Origin: Planctomycetota bacterium
GTDB lineage: Bacteria; Planctomycetota; J058
Length of the DNA stretch: 64,000 nt
Assembly: GCA_003695705.1 (NCBI GenBank)
Contig: RFHU01000012.1
Location: 1 to 64,000, forward strand
Direction of reading: 5' to 3'
The notes beneath the pieces are model-generated. The model had not been told where the DNA came from. It saw only the letters and a list, made by a program, of their open reading frames with translations, and did not search any database. Shown one piece after another: positions 1 through 9,575 of this stretch (position 1 is its first letter; each line of letters starts with the position of its first letter). The position numbers and the translations under genes were made by a program.

Positions 1-126
1 GCGCCCTTCTTCGCCGTCTGGCCGGCGCAGTCGCCGCAGTCCGCGCCCTTCTTCGCCGTCTGGCCGGCGCAGTCGCCGCAGTCCGCGCCCTTCTTCGCCG
101 TCTGGCCGGCGCAGTCGCCGCAGTCC
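1..126. repeat. Three perfect 42-bp tandem repeats
   Basis: The 42-base unit beginning gcgcccttcttcgccgtctg occurs at 1-42, 43-84 and 85-126 with no base difference and appears to continue beyond the left edge. The period is a multiple of three and encodes a 14-residue repeat in the minus-strand gene. Identity at synonymous positions points to recent expansion by slippage or unequal exchange. Confidence 0.95.
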
Positions 127-260
127 TCCCTCGGAGCCTCGAGGTCGATGCGGCTCGGGTCGAAGCCCTTCTTGCCGCCGCAATCCTGCGCCGAGGCGAA
201 GGAGGCCGCGCCGGCGAGCAGCGCTGCGGAAACGGAAACGATGCGGAGTGCGTACTTCAT
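1..260 (-). CDS. Secreted Cys-rich repeat protein, C-terminus cut by window edge
   Basis: This gene is missing from the ORF track because it leaves the window at base 1 without a stop. Reading the minus strand from the ATG at 260 gives a signal peptide (MKYALRIVSVSAALLAGAAS, probable cleavage near FASA-QD), a linker (DCGGKKGFDPSRIDLEAPRE), then at least three identical copies of DCGDCAGQTAKKGA. A GAGGAAGAGG ribosome-binding sequence lies about six bases before the ATG. Each repeat has a Cys-Gly-Asp-Cys pair, which could bind metal or form disulfides; that is inference. I do not recognise the family. The protein is exported by its signal peptide, and the cytochrome gene lies about 105 bases upstream on the same strand. 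Confidence 0.8.
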   Translation of the reverse strand, partial: MKYALRIVSVSAALLAGAASFASAQDCGGKKGFDPSRIDLEAPREDCGDCAGQTAKKGADCGDCAGQTAKKGADCGDCAGQTAKKG

Positions 261-365: not shown

Positions 366-2072
366 CTAGGGAACGCGCACTTCGGCGCTCGCCGCGGGGA
401 CGGGCCTCCGGTCGGCCGCCTCGTAAGCCGAGCGAAAGAAACGGACTTCGGGGGTGTCCCAGGCGAAGAGCTCGTCGGCGTAGCGTGCGCCGAGGACCTG
501 GTAGAAGAGGGTGGCTTCGACGGTCAGGGGCCCCGCCCGCGCGGGGAGGTCCACGAAGTAGTCGACCGAGTCCTCTCCCGGGCGATGGTCGGGGTCGCCT
601 TCCGTCCCGCGCGGGGCCGTCTCCACCGCGGCCGGGTGCTCGGGCTTCCAGCCGACGGGGAGGAGGCGATTGTCCTTGAGGTAGGCGACCCCGCGCAGGA
701 GCAGGTAGGTCGGACGGCCTTCGGCGTCGGCCAGGACGGCCTCGTAGACGACCGCCTCCCGAGAGCTCGTCACCCGAGTCCGGTGAGCCAGCAGGCCGCC
801 CCCGCGGCGTTCGGTGGGGAGTGGTGTCCCCGCGTCGTCCACGATGCGGCCTTGGGCGTCGTGCTCTCCGGAGGCGAAGAGGACCTGCCCGGCGGCGTTC
901 CGGACGCGCAGGCGGAGCCAGGCTCGGCGCGTAGGGTGCCCGGTGGGGAACTTGTGGCCGGTGAGGTTCTCCACGCGCACCCGGACGTGGAGCCGGCGCT
1001 CGCTGCGCTCCACCACCCGCACCCAGAGGCGCGCGGTGCGCTGGCTGAGCTGCTCCCGCGCCAGGGCGATGGTCCGGTCGAAGGCCTCGCGGGGCGCGTT
1101 GGGGCGTAGGACGTCGGCGCGGTCGCGCAGAATGGCCGGCACCAGCGTGTTTCCGCCGATGAAGATGTGCTGGCCGACGGGGGAGCGTTCGGGGATCCGG
1201 AAGTCCCCGCCCATGGGGTTGCGGGCAATGCGCGTCTCGATGAGGCGTCCCTCCGCGTCCCGAACGGGCACGTGGCAGTCCTGGCAGCTCCGGGCCCGAT
1301 GGTCGAGGTCCTCGACCTCGTCGTTGTAGACCGAATTGCGCCACTCGAGGTAGGGGGTCTGCTCGGGGAGCACCGCGCCCGTCGGGCGCCCCTCCGCGTC
1401 GAGGGAATCGGTGAAGAGGGTGTGGCAGGTGGCGCAGAGGGCCGAGTCGCGCAGGTGCTCTCCCTGGACCGGTCGGAACCCCGAGTGGCGCACCATGGGC
1501 ATGGCGAAGGGGTCGGCGTGGGGCCCGAAGATCCGACGCCCCCGCCCCACCCGAAAGCCCCCGCCGAAGCTCTCCCGCGCGCCGAGGAGCTCGGGCTGCA
1601 CTTGATGGCAGAGGGTGCAGGAAACCCCGTCGAGCGCGAGTTGGCCGAGGTCGCTGTCTTCGCGGAGGAGGTCCAGGCCGGGAGCGGGCGCACCGGCCAA
1701 GCGGAGGGTCTCGCTGGCGAGGGGGGCATGGCAGCGCATGCACTTGGCCTCGATGGCCGCCTTCCGGGATGGGGTGGCGGCCACCTCGACCGACACGGCG
1801 GCGCGCCAGAGGGGATCGCGGGAGGCGTTGGCCATCATCGTCGAGCGCCACAGGTCGAAGGGGGCGATGGAGCGTCCCTCGGCGTCGCGCAGGCCGCGCG
1901 CCCGCGGCGAGCTGGCATGGCAAAGCGCACAGCGGCTGGAGGTGGCGAAGTGCTCCGCGTCCACGGTGCGGTGGGCGGGGAGGGGCGACGGTTCGGCGTC
2001 CTGGGCGCCGACCCAGGCTCCCGCCGTGCAGGCAACGGCCAGGGAGAGGACGAAGGGCAGCGGCGAGCGCAC
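366..2072 (-). CDS. Secreted five-haem cytochrome c family protein
   Basis: A 568-residue protein with an N-terminal signal peptide (hydrophobic stretch ending near VGAQ, residue 24) and five CXXCH haem c sites: CALCH about 48, CMRCH 111, CTLCH 152, CATCH 213 and CQDCH 263. All haem sites lie in the first half. The C-terminal half has no haem motif and looks like a beta-rich domain (LHVRVRVENLTGHKFPTGHP and following). This pattern fits periplasmic multihaem cytochromes of the c554/c552 type, which carry electrons or reduce small oxyanions; the actual substrate cannot be told. The kinase-FGE gene lies about 100 bases upstream and the Cys-repeat gene downstream, all on the minus strand. Confidence 0.85.
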   Translation of the reverse strand: MRSPLPFVLSLAVACTAGAWVGAQDAEPSPLPAHRTVDAEHFATSSRCALCHASSPRARGLRDAEGRSIAPFDLWRSTMMANASRDPLWRAAVSVEVAATPSRKAAIEAKCMRCHAPLASETLRLAGAPAPGLDLLREDSDLGQLALDGVSCTLCHQVQPELLGARESFGGGFRVGRGRRIFGPHADPFAMPMVRHSGFRPVQGEHLRDSALCATCHTLFTDSLDAEGRPTGAVLPEQTPYLEWRNSVYNDEVEDLDHRARSCQDCHVPVRDAEGRLIETRIARNPMGGDFRIPERSPVGQHIFIGGNTLVPAILRDRADVLRPNAPREAFDRTIALAREQLSQRTARLWVRVVERSERRLHVRVRVENLTGHKFPTGHPTRRAWLRLRVRNAAGQVLFASGEHDAQGRIVDDAGTPLPTERRGGGLLAHRTRVTSSREAVVYEAVLADAEGRPTYLLLRGVAYLKDNRLLPVGWKPEHPAAVETAPRGTEGDPDHRPGEDSVDYFVDLPARAGPLTVEATLFYQVLGARYADELFAWDTPEVRFFRSAYEAADRRPVPAASAEVRVP

Positions 2073-2171: not shown

Positions 2172-4175
2172 TTAGGGGGAGCGGGCGACGCGAAAGCCGA
2201 TGAAGGGCGTCCAGGTGTCGGGGGCGGCGAACTCCCGCGCGGTGGTCGTGCAGGCGGAGAGCGGCTGCGCGTACGAACCGCCGCGAACCACCCGCGCGGG
2301 GGCTGGGGCGGGGTCCACGAGCGGCTCGTGCGCGGGCTCCGCCCTGTAGTAGGCACCGCCGTCCTCGACCCACTCGTAGACGTTGCCCGCCATGTCGAGG
2401 CAGCCGAAGGGGGAGGCGCCCGCCGGGTAGCGACCGACCGGCTGCGAACCCAAGGGGCCGTCCCCGCGGACACGGGCCCGGTCGGGAAGGGCGGCGTCTC
2501 CCCAGGGGAAACGCCGCCCGTCTCGACCGCGCGCGGCGTATTCCCACTGCGCCTCGCTCGGCAGGCGCAGCCCGGCCCAGGCGCAGTAGTCGCGCGCGTC
2601 CTTCCAGGACACCAGGACCACCGGGTGCTTCGGCGAGGTCGGGTAGGGAGGATCGAGGGGGGAATCGCGTCCCGCGTCGCGACAGTAGGCTGCGTACTGG
2701 GCGCGGGTGACCTCGTACTTGCCCAGGAAGAAGCCGTCCACCGAAACCCGGTGGGGAGGTGCTTCGAGGCGGCTCCGCCGGCTGCCCATGAGAAAGGTGC
2801 CGCCCGGGATCCACACCAGGACCGAGCCGTCTCGTTCGTTGAGGTACTCCCCCGGACTCGGACCCCAGCGGACGCCGGGCGGGAGGCGCGGGGGCCGCGC
2901 CGCGGGGGGGAGGGCGCGGAACCAGGCCGGCGCGCCCGTCTCTTTGGCCCGAGGAGAGCCGTCGGGGGCCTTCGTCGGCCCGGCGCGCCTCTGGGGCGTT
3001 CCGCGCGCGGGCGAGGGAGCCTCTTCGTCGGCCGAGGGGGAGGGTGCGGGCGGCGTGGGAGTCCGGGCGGCGACGCCGGACGCGGGGGCGGAGCCACCGG
3101 CGACGAGGGCGGCGACGAGGGCGACGAGGCCTGCGCCCCCAAGCAGGGCCAGGGCCGCGGCGGTTCGTCCGGAGCCCCACCGGCGACCCCGGCGACCGGC
3201 GTCCGCCTCGACCGGGAGGCCGCCGGCCAGCCAGGCGTCGAGGGCCGCCGCGAAGGCGTCGCCGTCCGGGTAGCGCTCGGCCGGCTCGCGAGCCAGGGCG
3301 CGCAGGCAAACGGCCTCGAGGCCGGGAGGCACTCGGGGAAGGATCGCGTGCGGTGGTGTCGGCGACTGGGTGCGGACCGCCTCCGCCAACTCGAGGAGGC
3401 TGCTGGCGGGGAAAGGCGGCCGCCCGCAGAGGAGCCGGTAGAGGAGGACCCCGAGGGCCCACACGTCGGTCGCCGGGCTGACCTCGCCTGCGGAGAACTG
3501 CTCGGGTGCCATCGCACGGGGGGTCCCGACCAGGTCCCCCGTGCGGGTGAGGTCGTCGAGGCCGGTTGCGCGCGCGAGGCCGAAGTCCGTCACGCGGACG
3601 CGACCGTCGCCGTCGACCAAGACGTTCTCCGACTTCACGTCGCGATGCACCACCCCGCGCCGATGCGCGTGGCCGAGGGCGCGGGCCGCGTCGCGCAGCC
3701 ACTCGACGCCCCGACCCAGGGAAGCGTGGGCGCAGGCCTCGAGCAGGGGGCGGGCGCCCGGAACGAGCTCGTAGACGAGGAAGGGCACAGCGCCGGCCCA
3801 GCCGAAGTCGTGCACCGCGACGATGGCCGGGTGCCGGAGGGCGGCGGCGACCTGCCCCTCGCGCCGGAAACGCCGCAGCACGGCCTCGTCCGCCCGCGGC
3901 AGGCGGTCGAGGCGCTTCAAGGCCACCTGGCGACCGAGTCGCGGGTCGAAGGCGCGGTGGACGGTCCCGGCTCCGCCCCGTCCGAGGACCTCGAGCAGGA
4001 CGTAGCCCGAGACCCACCGACCGGGCGCCCACCCAGACTCGGGCGTGGGGCACGGCGTCTCCGCCGCCGCGGCACCCTCCCCGCTGGGGATAGCGGAGAG
4101 GCACCACTCCGCCGACGCGGAGCCGTGGGCGTCGTCGAAGGGTTCCGGGCCCTCTGGGTTGCCCGCGTTCGCCAC
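2172..4175 (-). CDS. Ser/Thr protein kinase fused to FGE-sulfatase domain
   Basis: The start is taken as the GTG at 4175, which has AAGGAG nine bases upstream; the longer ORF in the track runs through the divergent promoter into the neighbouring gene. The 667-residue product has a Hanks kinase domain at about 58-310 with a Gly loop (LGRGGAGTV), Lys in VALKRL, catalytic HRDVKSEN and DFG, so it looks active. A single membrane helix follows (LALLGGAGLVALVAALVAG), then a Pro/Ala-rich linker. A C-terminal FGE/SUMF1-like domain covers about 425-665 (WIPGGTFLMGS, LPSEAQWEYAARG, CLDMAGNVYEWVED, RVVRGGSY). The topology puts the kinase in the cytoplasm and the FGE-like domain outside, so that domain may act as a sensor. 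Whether it has formylglycine-generating activity is unknown. Confidence 0.9.
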   Translation of the reverse strand: MANAGNPEGPEPFDDAHGSASAEWCLSAIPSGEGAAAAETPCPTPESGWAPGRWVSGYVLLEVLGRGGAGTVHRAFDPRLGRQVALKRLDRLPRADEAVLRRFRREGQVAAALRHPAIVAVHDFGWAGAVPFLVYELVPGARPLLEACAHASLGRGVEWLRDAARALGHAHRRGVVHRDVKSENVLVDGDGRVRVTDFGLARATGLDDLTRTGDLVGTPRAMAPEQFSAGEVSPATDVWALGVLLYRLLCGRPPFPASSLLELAEAVRTQSPTPPHAILPRVPPGLEAVCLRALAREPAERYPDGDAFAAALDAWLAGGLPVEADAGRRGRRWGSGRTAAALALLGGAGLVALVAALVAGGSAPASGVAARTPTPPAPSPSADEEAPSPARGTPQRRAGPTKAPDGSPRAKETGAPAWFRALPPAARPPRLPPGVRWGPSPGEYLNERDGSVLVWIPGGTFLMGSRRSRLEAPPHRVSVDGFFLGKYEVTRAQYAAYCRDAGRDSPLDPPYPTSPKHPVVLVSWKDARDYCAWAGLRLPSEAQWEYAARGRDGRRFPWGDAALPDRARVRGDGPLGSQPVGRYPAGASPFGCLDMAGNVYEWVEDGGAYYRAEPAHEPLVDPAPAPARVVRGGSYAQPLSACTTTAREFAAPDTWTPFIGFRVARSP

Positions 4176-4359
4176 GCCGTCAGTCTCCTTCCCCCGGGAG
4201 CGACGCACAAGCCGCCGACGGTGGGGAACGACGGAATAAGGGCGGAATCGGCCGCGCGAAGGCGAGCCCCAAGTGCTTGTTCGCGAGCCCCTTGGGCTCG
4301 CTCCCCCGCGGGCACGCGCCTCGCTCCCAAGGCCCTCCGTCCTGCGAGAGGAGCGCGCG

Positions 4360-6600
4360 ATGCATCCGGGCCGGTTCTTCCTTTCCTCTTTCCTCTGGGC
4401 CGTTGCCGTCGCCGCGGTCGCGGCGCCGGGCTGCGGCGGACACGGCCGCTCGTCCGCGCGCGGCTCTGCGTCGGGCGGCAGCACCGCGACGCCGCCCCCC
4501 GGCGGGGGCGCGCCCGCCGGCGCCGTCGCCTTGCGCCTGCGCGACGGCCCCGCGCAGCCCGCCGACCGCCGCGTGCAGGCCCCCGCCGCGGGGGTGGTGG
4601 TCGGGCAGGTACGCGTCGAGGCCAGCGCCTCCTTGACCGTCGAAGCCGTCGCGGCCGCCGCCGACGGGACCATCGATGAATCCACCGGCCTCGGCGACAC
4701 CCGCCTCTACCGCGACGTCGACGGAGACGGCGCCTTGGGCCCCAACGACCTGCCCCTGGGGACGGGACAGGCAGTGTCGCGAGACAACGGGATGGTCACC
4801 TTCCGCGGGCTCGGGCTCCGCGTGGACCCCGCCGCCCCCGTCGACCTCCTCCTCGCCACCGAGGTCCGCGGCGCCGCCCGGGTCGGCGACACGGTGAGCT
4901 TCCGCGTCGAGGGGTGGCGAGCCGAGGCCCGCGACCCCTCGGGCCAGCTCGTGCGCGGGGAGGCGGGCGCCGAGCTGGGCGCGGCGCGGGTCGTGGGAGG
5001 AGACCCGCCGCGCGACCTCTCGGTGTCGCTGGCGCCCACGAGCCCGAGCAGCCCCTTGTCCGTCGCGGCCGACGCGCGCGACGTGCCCGCCGTGGCCTTG
5101 CGCTTCGAGAGCGCCCTCGGCGGCCTGGACCTGCAAGGACTCACCTTTGCCCTGCGCGGCAGCGGCGACGACGCCCGCGACCTGCTCGAGGCACGCCTGG
5201 TGCTCGACGCCAACCGCAACGGGGCCATCGACGCCGGCGAGCGCGTGCTCGCACGCGGAGTGCCCGACGCGGACGACGGCCGCCTGGCCTTCGCCTTCGG
5301 CGGACAGCGCCTCGCTGCCGGTGGAAGCCTGGACCTCGTGGTGGGGCTCCGCTTGGCGGGGACCGCCGCGGCGGGGGCCAAGTTCTCGCTGGCCCTCGAC
5401 GCCGCCGGCGTCACGGCCCACAACCACACCGGCAACGGCGGGGTCTCCGTCCGGCTCGCGGCGACGCCCCTGCGCGGGGCGACCCTCCGCGTGGGAAGAA
5501 CCGCCGACGCACTACTGGCGCGCGCCGCGGGCGACCCGGCGCGCATCGCCGGCGCCGGCGAGCATCTCTCCTTGGCCTTGACCCTCCGCGCGGGGGGCGC
5601 GCCGGCGCAAGTCGACGCGCTCACCGTGCATGCGCGCGGCGACCTCGACGACGCTCGGGAAGTGGGCGGGGTCTCCCTCTACGACGACGCCGACGGCGAC
5701 GGGCGCTTTGTGCCGGGGAGCGACGCGCTCCTGAGCGGCCCCGCGCGCTTCGCGCGCGACGATGGCCAAGTCCACTTCGCCCTCGCCAGCCCCCTCGACG
5801 TGCCCGCGGGTACCGCCCGCACCCTGCTCGTCGTGGTCGAGTTCCCGGCCGGTCTCGCGCCGGGCAAGGGCTTCGCCCTCGTCGTGGACCCGGCCGCCGG
5901 CGACCTCAGCACGAACGCCACGGTTGCGCCCGTTCCCTTGCAGGTGGGCACCTTGCTCGTGACCGGCTCCGGGCGGACGGCCCTCGTGCAGCCCGACCCC
6001 GCCCTGGGCAAGGACGCCTACGTGCGCGGCGAGGGCCTCTACCTCAACGACAACTTCGGCCGGCACGGCCTGGCGGTGGGCGACCGCCCGAGCGGCCAAC
6101 TCGGCGAGCGGCAGAGCTACATCGAGCTCCCGCTCCCCGCCCTGCCGGCCGGAGCGACGCCCGCCCGCGCCTACCTCGCCCTTTACGTCACCGGCACCGG
6201 AGGGCTCACGGGGCCCTTCCTCGACGTGCAGGCGCACCGCGTGATCGACTCGCCCGGGGGGCGGACGCCCTGGATCGAAGGACGCGGCGGCTTCGACGCC
6301 TCGGCGGACGGCATTTGCTACGACGGGACCATCCAGGGGACCGGACGCCCGGAGCTCAGCCGCCCCGACGTGGACCCCACGGCCTTGGACGAAGTGCGCG
6401 TGGCCGCGGGAAGCGAGGGGAACTGGGTCCTCTTCGACGTCACCGCCGCCGTGCGCCGCTGGGCGAACGGCAGCGCGCCCAACTTCGGCCTGCGCCTGCG
6501 CGACAAGGACTTCGCCACCCACGACGACGGCGCGGTCTCCTTTGCCTCGAGCGACGACCCCTGGGCGCGACGGCGGCCCATCCTCATCGTCGAGCACTGA
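4360..6600 (+). CDS. Secreted lipoprotein with C-terminal DNRLRE domain
   Basis: The start is the ATG at 4360, preceded by GAGAGGAG; the longer ORF has no such support. The product is about 746 residues. The N-terminus is hydrophobic and ends in APGCGG, an imperfect lipobox, followed by a Gly/Ser/Pro linker. The middle contains repeated beta domains with EF-hand or dockerin-like acidic loops (DVDGDGALGPNDLPLG and DDADGDGRFVPGSDALL) that may bind calcium. The last 200 residues resemble the DNRLRE domain found in extracellular proteins (YIELPLPALP, VLFDVTAAVRRWANG, FGLRLRDKD). It is likely exposed on the cell surface. It is divergent from the kinase-FGE gene with 184 bases between them. Confidence 0.8.
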   Translation: MHPGRFFLSSFLWAVAVAAVAAPGCGGHGRSSARGSASGGSTATPPPGGGAPAGAVALRLRDGPAQPADRRVQAPAAGVVVGQVRVEASASLTVEAVAAAADGTIDESTGLGDTRLYRDVDGDGALGPNDLPLGTGQAVSRDNGMVTFRGLGLRVDPAAPVDLLLATEVRGAARVGDTVSFRVEGWRAEARDPSGQLVRGEAGAELGAARVVGGDPPRDLSVSLAPTSPSSPLSVAADARDVPAVALRFESALGGLDLQGLTFALRGSGDDARDLLEARLVLDANRNGAIDAGERVLARGVPDADDGRLAFAFGGQRLAAGGSLDLVVGLRLAGTAAAGAKFSLALDAAGVTAHNHTGNGGVSVRLAATPLRGATLRVGRTADALLARAAGDPARIAGAGEHLSLALTLRAGGAPAQVDALTVHARGDLDDAREVGGVSLYDDADGDGRFVPGSDALLSGPARFARDDGQVHFALASPLDVPAGTARTLLVVVEFPAGLAPGKGFALVVDPAAGDLSTNATVAPVPLQVGTLLVTGSGRTALVQPDPALGKDAYVRGEGLYLNDNFGRHGLAVGDRPSGQLGERQSYIELPLPALPAGATPARAYLALYVTGTGGLTGPFLDVQAHRVIDSPGGRTPWIEGRGGFDASADGICYDGTIQGTGRPELSRPDVDPTALDEVRVAAGSEGNWVLFDVTAAVRRWANGSAPNFGLRLRDKDFATHDDGAVSFASSDDPWARRRPILIVEH

Positions 6601-8399: not shown

Positions 8400-9575
8400 T
8401 CAGTCGGTGGTTCCTTGCTCGTCGAGCGCGCGGCGGATGGCCCGCGGAAGGATGTCGCGCTCGATGCGCTTGGCGGCGCGGACCACCTCGGCCTCGACGA
8501 GGGTCTTCAGCTCGGGCGAGGCCAGCAGGCCTTCGAGGCCGGCGGCGCCGGCCGCTTCCGCCTCGGCGGAGGCGCCTCCCCGCGCAGCGGTCCGCACGCT
8601 CCGCAGTTCCTCTTCCAAGGCCTCCAGCCGCGCCGCAGCGGCCTCGCGGGCGGCGCGGGCCTCGGCGGCGAGCTCGTCCAGGGCCTGGCGCAGCGCGGCC
8701 CGCTCTCCGGCGGCGCGCTCCTCGAGCTCCGCGAGGGCGCCCTCGAGCGCCTGTCGGGCGGCGGCGAGGTCCTCCCGGGCCGCCCCCGTCGCCCCCTCGA
8801 CCGCGTCCAGGCGCGCCGTCGCCGCCCTCCGCACACCCTCGAGGGCGGCCTCGAATTCCTTGCGGGCGGCCCCGACGTCGCGGGTCGCCGCCGCCGCCAG
8901 GTCTTCGTGGGCCTCGGCGGCCTCCTTGCGCAAGTCGCGTGCGAGCGCCTCCCGCGCCGCGGTCGCGGCTTCGACTTCCCGTGCGAGCTCGCGGGCTCCC
9001 TGTTCGAGGGCGTCGAGGCGCTCGGCGCGTTCGCGGGCTCCCTGTTCGAGGGCGTCGAGGCGCTCGGCGTGCTCTTCGCGCACGGCGGCCGACTCGGCCT
9101 GCAGGCGCTCGCCGAGGACCTCGAGGCGGCCCACCAGGCGGTCTTCCAGGGCCGCGAGGTGTCGGCCGACGCGCTCCTCGAGCGCCGTGCGCGCCTGCGT
9201 CGCCTCCTCGCGTGCGGCGGCCAGGGCTTGCTCGGCCTTGACGAATTCTTGCACGGTCTCGGCGCGGGTCTTCTGCAGCACCTTGTCGAGCTCGGCGCGC
9301 GCCTTGTTCAGGCGCGCCGTCGCCAGCTCGAGCGCGGTCTGGGGGACACCGTGTTCGCGCAGGCCGCGTGCGAGGACGAGGACTTCGTCGGCGAGCTGGG
9401 CGGCCGGGTCGAGCTGGGCGCGCGCGAGGAGGGCTTCGGCCGCGCGCAGGCGCGCCTCGACGCCGGGATGGCTGCCGGCGCGCGCGCAGGCGGCCTGGGC
9501 GGCCGCGCGCGCGCGCGCGAGGCGCTCTTGCACGACGGCGGCGGTCAGACTCGATCCCGCGGCGTCCTCGGCCAT
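8400..9575 (-). CDS. Ala/Glu-rich long coiled-coil protein
   Basis: A 391-residue protein made almost entirely of Ala, Glu, Arg and Leu heptads after a short N-terminal helical region. A 14-residue unit, AERLDALEQGARER, is duplicated near the middle and encoded by a 42-bp near-identical DNA repeat. The C-terminal 45 residues (LLASPELKTLVEAEVVRAAK, then RIERDILPRAIRRAL) are less repetitive and could be a small domain. There is no signal or membrane helix. It is the first gene of a two-gene minus-strand operon with the coiled-coil gene at 7551-8387. Its function is unknown. Confidence 0.75.
   Translation of the reverse strand: MAEDAAGSSLTAAVVQERLARARAAAQAACARAGSHPGVEARLRAAEALLARAQLDPAAQLADEVLVLARGLREHGVPQTALELATARLNKARAELDKVLQKTRAETVQEFVKAEQALAAAREEATQARTALEERVGRHLAALEDRLVGRLEVLGERLQAESAAVREEHAERLDALEQGARERAERLDALEQGARELAREVEAATAAREALARDLRKEAAEAHEDLAAAATRDVGAARKEFEAALEGVRRAATARLDAVEGATGAAREDLAAARQALEGALAELEERAAGERAALRQALDELAAEARAAREAAAARLEALEEELRSVRTAARGGASAEAEAAGAAGLEGLLASPELKTLVEAEVVRAAKRIERDILPRAIRRALDEQGTTD
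8989..9069. repeat. Tandem duplication with 42-bp period inside the coiled-coil gene
   Basis: The 39-base string tcgcgggctccctgttcgag... occurs at 8989-9027 and again at 9031-9069. It encodes the duplicated 14-residue heptad unit. Confidence 0.85.

Follow-up and report, generated by a model that had tools for sequence, protein, structure and literature searches.

A cysteine-rich, repeat-built and putatively exported protein of Planctomycetota, read from a tandem array at a contig end

Described wall proteins and the gene at the contig end

Planctomycete envelopes are unusual and partly reinforced by protein, and the known Cys-rich wall proteins, those with the YTV domain (PF07639), are confined to some planctomycete lineages. 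Cys-rich YTV proteins have been recovered from planctomycete cell-wall preparations (PMC8567305), and a role as regulators of wall rigidity has been suggested for them (PMC10632474). At the Pfam gathering score, the YTV domain is absent from the protein considered here (P0001/P0002) and from the contigs of its genome, which is 88% complete; the same search, as a positive control, finds the domain in 6 of 99 genomes of the phylum. Single weak YTV matches above the cut-off were seen in family f18 (G024:C53:24906-25022 and G072:C12:12495-12578), and G024 carries both such a match and one of the KGC-module proteins described below. If these matches are real, YTV extends past the multi-copy genomes of family f28.

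The window analysed here is a stretch of 64,000 nucleotides from a Planctomycetota metagenome-assembled genome (MAG) of 564 contigs (GCA_003695705.1, here G000). Its base 1 is base 1 of the contig (RFHU01000012.1, here C320). The features discussed below are the following.

1-126, minus strand: three 42-bp copies of one unit (DCGDCAGQTAKKGA) in tandem, identical at every base and truncated where contig C320 ends
3-260, minus strand: 5' part (86 codons) of a gene that runs off the contig, encoding a repeat protein rich in Cys and Lys and predicted to be exported
189-260, minus strand: predicted signal peptide MKYALRIVSVSAALLAGAASFASA, judged by eye
366-2072, minus strand: multihaem cytochrome c with five CxxCH motifs, the co-directional upstream neighbour
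Contig C330, L004:2-571: candidate continuation of the window gene, with two diverged units and two KGCxxS modules

The minus-strand ORF from 260 to 3 translates as MKYALRIVSVSAALLAGAASFASAQDCGGKKGFDPSRIDLEAPRE followed by three copies of DCGDCAGQTAKKGA, the last of which lacks its final residue. Its product, P0001, has a predicted signal peptide followed by the motif QDC(G/C) in the form QDCGG, with which the mature chain likely begins. A preliminary description of the locus had proposed an exported, Cys-rich protein with an in-frame repeat, and both parts of that proposal were upheld by the predicted signal peptide in the ORF starting at 260 and by the CGDC units of the same ORF, whose reading frame is intact on C320 and C330 alike. 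Since 42 is divisible by 3, the plus strand is open over the array as well, but the resulting ORF (APFFAVWPAQSPQS) was rejected, since it is the minus strand that has the signal peptide and, via C330, a family match.

Searches against Pfam, NCBIfam, PHROGs, PDB sequences and PDB folds gave nothing credible above thresholds; no PDB sequence matched credibly, and PHROGs and plasmids returned no match. Positions 2172-4700 of the window (minus strand) hold an 842-aa ORF in which a serine/threonine protein kinase is fused to a formylglycine-generating-enzyme-like (FGE-sulfatase) domain.

The tandem array and its probable continuation on a second contig

As the preliminary description stated, the three 42-bp units are identical at every base: a pure period of 42 spans window positions 1-126 (3.0 copies, 100% match). 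At this period the bases of the window match in an unbroken run of up to 84, whereas 20 first-order Markov sequences simulated from the window reach no more than 17 bases at any period from 4 to 99. Another stretch of perfect 42-bp periodicity (8989-9069, 1.9 copies) lies within a coiled-coil-like ORF (8400-9575, minus strand), where it encodes RLDALEQGARE-type repeats and has no relation to the Cys repeat.

Within this MAG, contig C330 likewise starts inside the Cys repeat and keeps its frame; its units NCGGCAGQTAKKGA and NCSGCAGQTATKGK are followed by two modules of about 70 residues with KGCxxS motifs and by a stop at L004:571. Most likely, C320 and C330 carry the two ends of one gene whose assembly was broken by the array, and the paired KGCxxS modules that adjoin the Cys/Lys stretch on C330 would through this join be linked to the window half. 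The array would then most likely comprise at least five units. That the C330 fragment instead belongs to a different gene (a paralogue), in which case the window gene would end unlike its relatives, is in our judgement very unlikely. Such a reading can draw on the suffix-prefix match between the two contigs, which is merely 12 bases and obtainable from repeat phase alone, and on the start of C330, where the pure-repeat stretch matching C320 is absent, contrary to what a simple assembly-graph break predicts. It is opposed by the fact that the N-terminal 86 residues match only two places in the genome, the ends of C320 and C330, and no other contig ends. In addition, both contigs break within the same in-frame repeat, and the parts, once joined, stand in the order seen in relatives. 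The relative in G161 likewise runs off its contig inside its own array, a Lys/Cys repeat of 93-bp period (L082/L043, the end of G161:C116), so the window is not the only place where an array has broken an assembly.

C320 stops after exactly three periods (126 bp), the length that an assembler working with k near 127 would be expected to leave when it meets a longer run of identical units. The earlier expectation that the array continues off the window held in part, as the array resumes on C330 in two diverged units but the window edge is itself the end of contig C320. The concern that the repeat might be out of frame or an assembly loop was likewise only half dispelled: C320 and C330 both keep the reading frame, but the array most likely did break the assembly. 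A one-gene locus would be a clear example of metagenome assembly failing at a repeat array, so that the rest of the gene is concealed.

Relative to the window unit, the two C330 units carry two and six base changes, respectively, and all of the changed codons alter the amino acid, with no silent differences. Three identical copies, together with diverged units that lack silent differences, suggest the recent array expansion that had been proposed earlier. Array length may shift through unequal crossing-over or slippage.

Relatives in Planctomycetota

Relatives were recovered with the C-terminal, module-bearing half of the protein and could not be recovered with the repeat half. When P0001 (the N-terminal 86 aa) was searched against 58 relatives' genomes, it matched only itself and C330; against 392 genomes of the phylum it gave weak matches only, and the most Cys-pair-rich ORF at each of the 19 weak-match places was no clear relative. 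The module profile matched 7 of the 392 Planctomycetota genomes (G000, G004, G024, G052, G133, G161 and G199), a result reproduced on a repeat search, and a pattern scan of the whole GTDB with two short peptide patterns found three loci, all in Planctomycetota MAGs. The six genomes besides G000 carry relatives with the same general plan, namely a Cys/Lys-rich stretch with KGC modules and a signal peptide wherever the start is complete. In G133 and G199, Cys/Lys stretches flank the modules on both sides. Presence is patchy even within the taxonomic family of the window genome, where 2 of 7 genomes (G000 and G004) have the gene. From these sequences the proteins appear to form a small family, so far found only in Planctomycetota and undescribed, though ordinary in kind.

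The mature chain starts with QDCGD in G024, QDCCN in G133 and QDCGG in G199; G004 is near (QDGCC), G052 is different, and no start was seen in G161. The Cys/Lys-rich stretch is unlike between relatives (e.g. CGDCTDCDPAGCQEC, DCCNSSKK, SDCGDCDSQKAGKLAAK and DCCQEEAKKVATKTEKSCC), with cysteines arranged as CxxC, CC or CxxxC. DNA repeat periods differ as well, at 42 in the window, 93 in G161 and 102 in G133, and G004 has a Cys-free 15-bp array. An Extensin_1 match below the gathering score covers the Pro/Ala/Lys repeats of G004.

Within the modules, positions C16, G52, C53 and L60 are invariant and G15 and S19 nearly so, and Cys is retained at both helix turns. Overall confidence in the structure models of two relatives is low, with mean pLDDT values of 50 and 61 (three sequences). 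The modules are modelled as helical, with four helices each and ten-residue block means mostly of 60-88, and the Cys-rich N- and C-terminal ends as disordered (pLDDT about 25-45). Foldseek comparison of both models with PDB returned nothing with E below 4 and no solenoid.

Five relatives, taken from mature start to stop, contain 4-11% Cys, 16-24% K+R, 0.6-2.6% aromatics and 0-1.3% His, and their net charge is +14 to +41. Such a composition, rich in Lys, Ala and Cys and poor in aromatics and His, fits a structural role better than an enzymatic one. Cys counts in the mature relatives (15, 19, 23, 26 and 27) are not uniformly even; therefore, full intramolecular pairing is not implied.

Profiled neighbours of the family loci include the multihaem cytochrome, an OLD-like ATPase, a helicase, a SpoIIE phosphatase, an ExbD-domain gene and cyclophilins. 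No neighbourhood is conserved across these loci except for the cyclophilin in G133 and G199, and no conserved neighbour hints at wall synthesis. In both genomes, a gene for a cyclophilin-type prolyl isomerase lies downstream of that for the Cys-rich protein (L080:6885-8144 in G133 and L081:4172-5392 in G199). The co-directional cytochrome c gene in the window, about 105 bp upstream, might together with the CxxC motif indicate a redox or electron-transfer accessory, with CxxC units as thiol-disulfide exchangers and the cytochrome as their partner. This role is highly improbable given that no thioredoxin-type family was matched, that no cytochrome occurs among the profiled neighbours of relatives, and that CGDC is kept neither in the C330 units nor in most relatives.

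Candidate role and comparison with known systems

The explanation that fits best is an exported, disulfide-cross-linked protein of the envelope or extracellular matrix, a building block rather than an enzyme, which we advance tentatively and with somewhat less than even confidence. Sec would export the protein, its cysteines would oxidise outside the cytoplasm, and the flexible CxxC/Lys segments would form inter-chain disulfides, perhaps plus ionic contacts to anionic polymers, with the helical modules as spacers in the resulting cross-linked component. Such a component would best fit Cys in variable flexible arrays, helical spacers, positive charge and export, and the variation of the Cys stretches alongside retained modules agrees with segments used for cross-linking more than with a single fixed site for metal. 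Points that weigh against this explanation are the uneven Cys counts, the patchy presence, the low model confidence, and the failure of searches to match a known family or to find a conserved neighbour tied to wall synthesis.

The main rival, which we consider somewhat unlikely, is an exported metallothionein-like protein that sequesters metal, each CxxC unit binding a soft metal (Cu, Zn, Cd or Hg) and array length setting capacity. Repeated CGDC beside acidic residues, Cys pairs at spacing 3 every 14 residues and a weak sub-threshold similarity to the double zinc ribbon DZR_2 (E 0.3; 11.4 bits, cut-off 27) are consistent with it. However, Asp is missing from the C330 units (CGGC and CSGC) and several relatives have CC or CxxxC in place of CxxC, changes that speak for a loose Cys requirement. 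No metal-transport or metal-resistance gene was found among the profiled neighbours, and an exported thiol protein in an oxidising compartment would tend towards disulfide formation. The preliminary description had allowed for either a metal-binding or a disulfide-rich protein; because the other half of the protein and its family have become visible, a structural, disulfide-rich exported protein is favoured over a dedicated metal-binding peptide. A wider proposal, which we regard as unlikely, is that a new fast-evolving exported disulfide-cross-linked envelope family replaces YTV-type proteins in lineages mostly without YTV, and that repeat number tunes cross-link density. If true, planctomycete lineages with few YTV proteins would have a second, unrelated Cys-rich exported family as a candidate envelope stiffener.

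Among known systems, GSU3529 (NF045727) weakly resembles the relatives in G024 and G052 over about 24 residues that surround a motif of the KGCxxS type; membership was rejected because scores of 19-22 bits fall short of the cut-off of 44, and the window genome gave no match. Sel1-like/Hcp Cys-rich solenoids have Cys at helix starts about 35 residues apart, a spacing shared with this family and useful as a lead only, and no Sel1 Pfam match was obtained at E up to 1. Metallothioneins and other Cys-rich metal-storage proteins resemble this family in their dense Cys in short repeats and in having few aromatics or His, but the present proteins are predicted to be exported, have helical modules attached, vary freely in Cys spacing and match no such family; metallothionein or zinc-ribbon membership was rejected, no domain exceeding its cut-off and DZR_2 alone appearing below it. 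The nearest precedent would be the Cys-rich YTV wall proteins of the Planctomycetia, which are likewise exported, Cys-rich, repeat-built and restricted to Planctomycetota. The window protein, in contrast, is without the YTV motif, is Lys-rich, has other modules and is found mostly in other lineages. It thus appears to be an analogue of the YTV cell-wall proteins rather than a member of that family.
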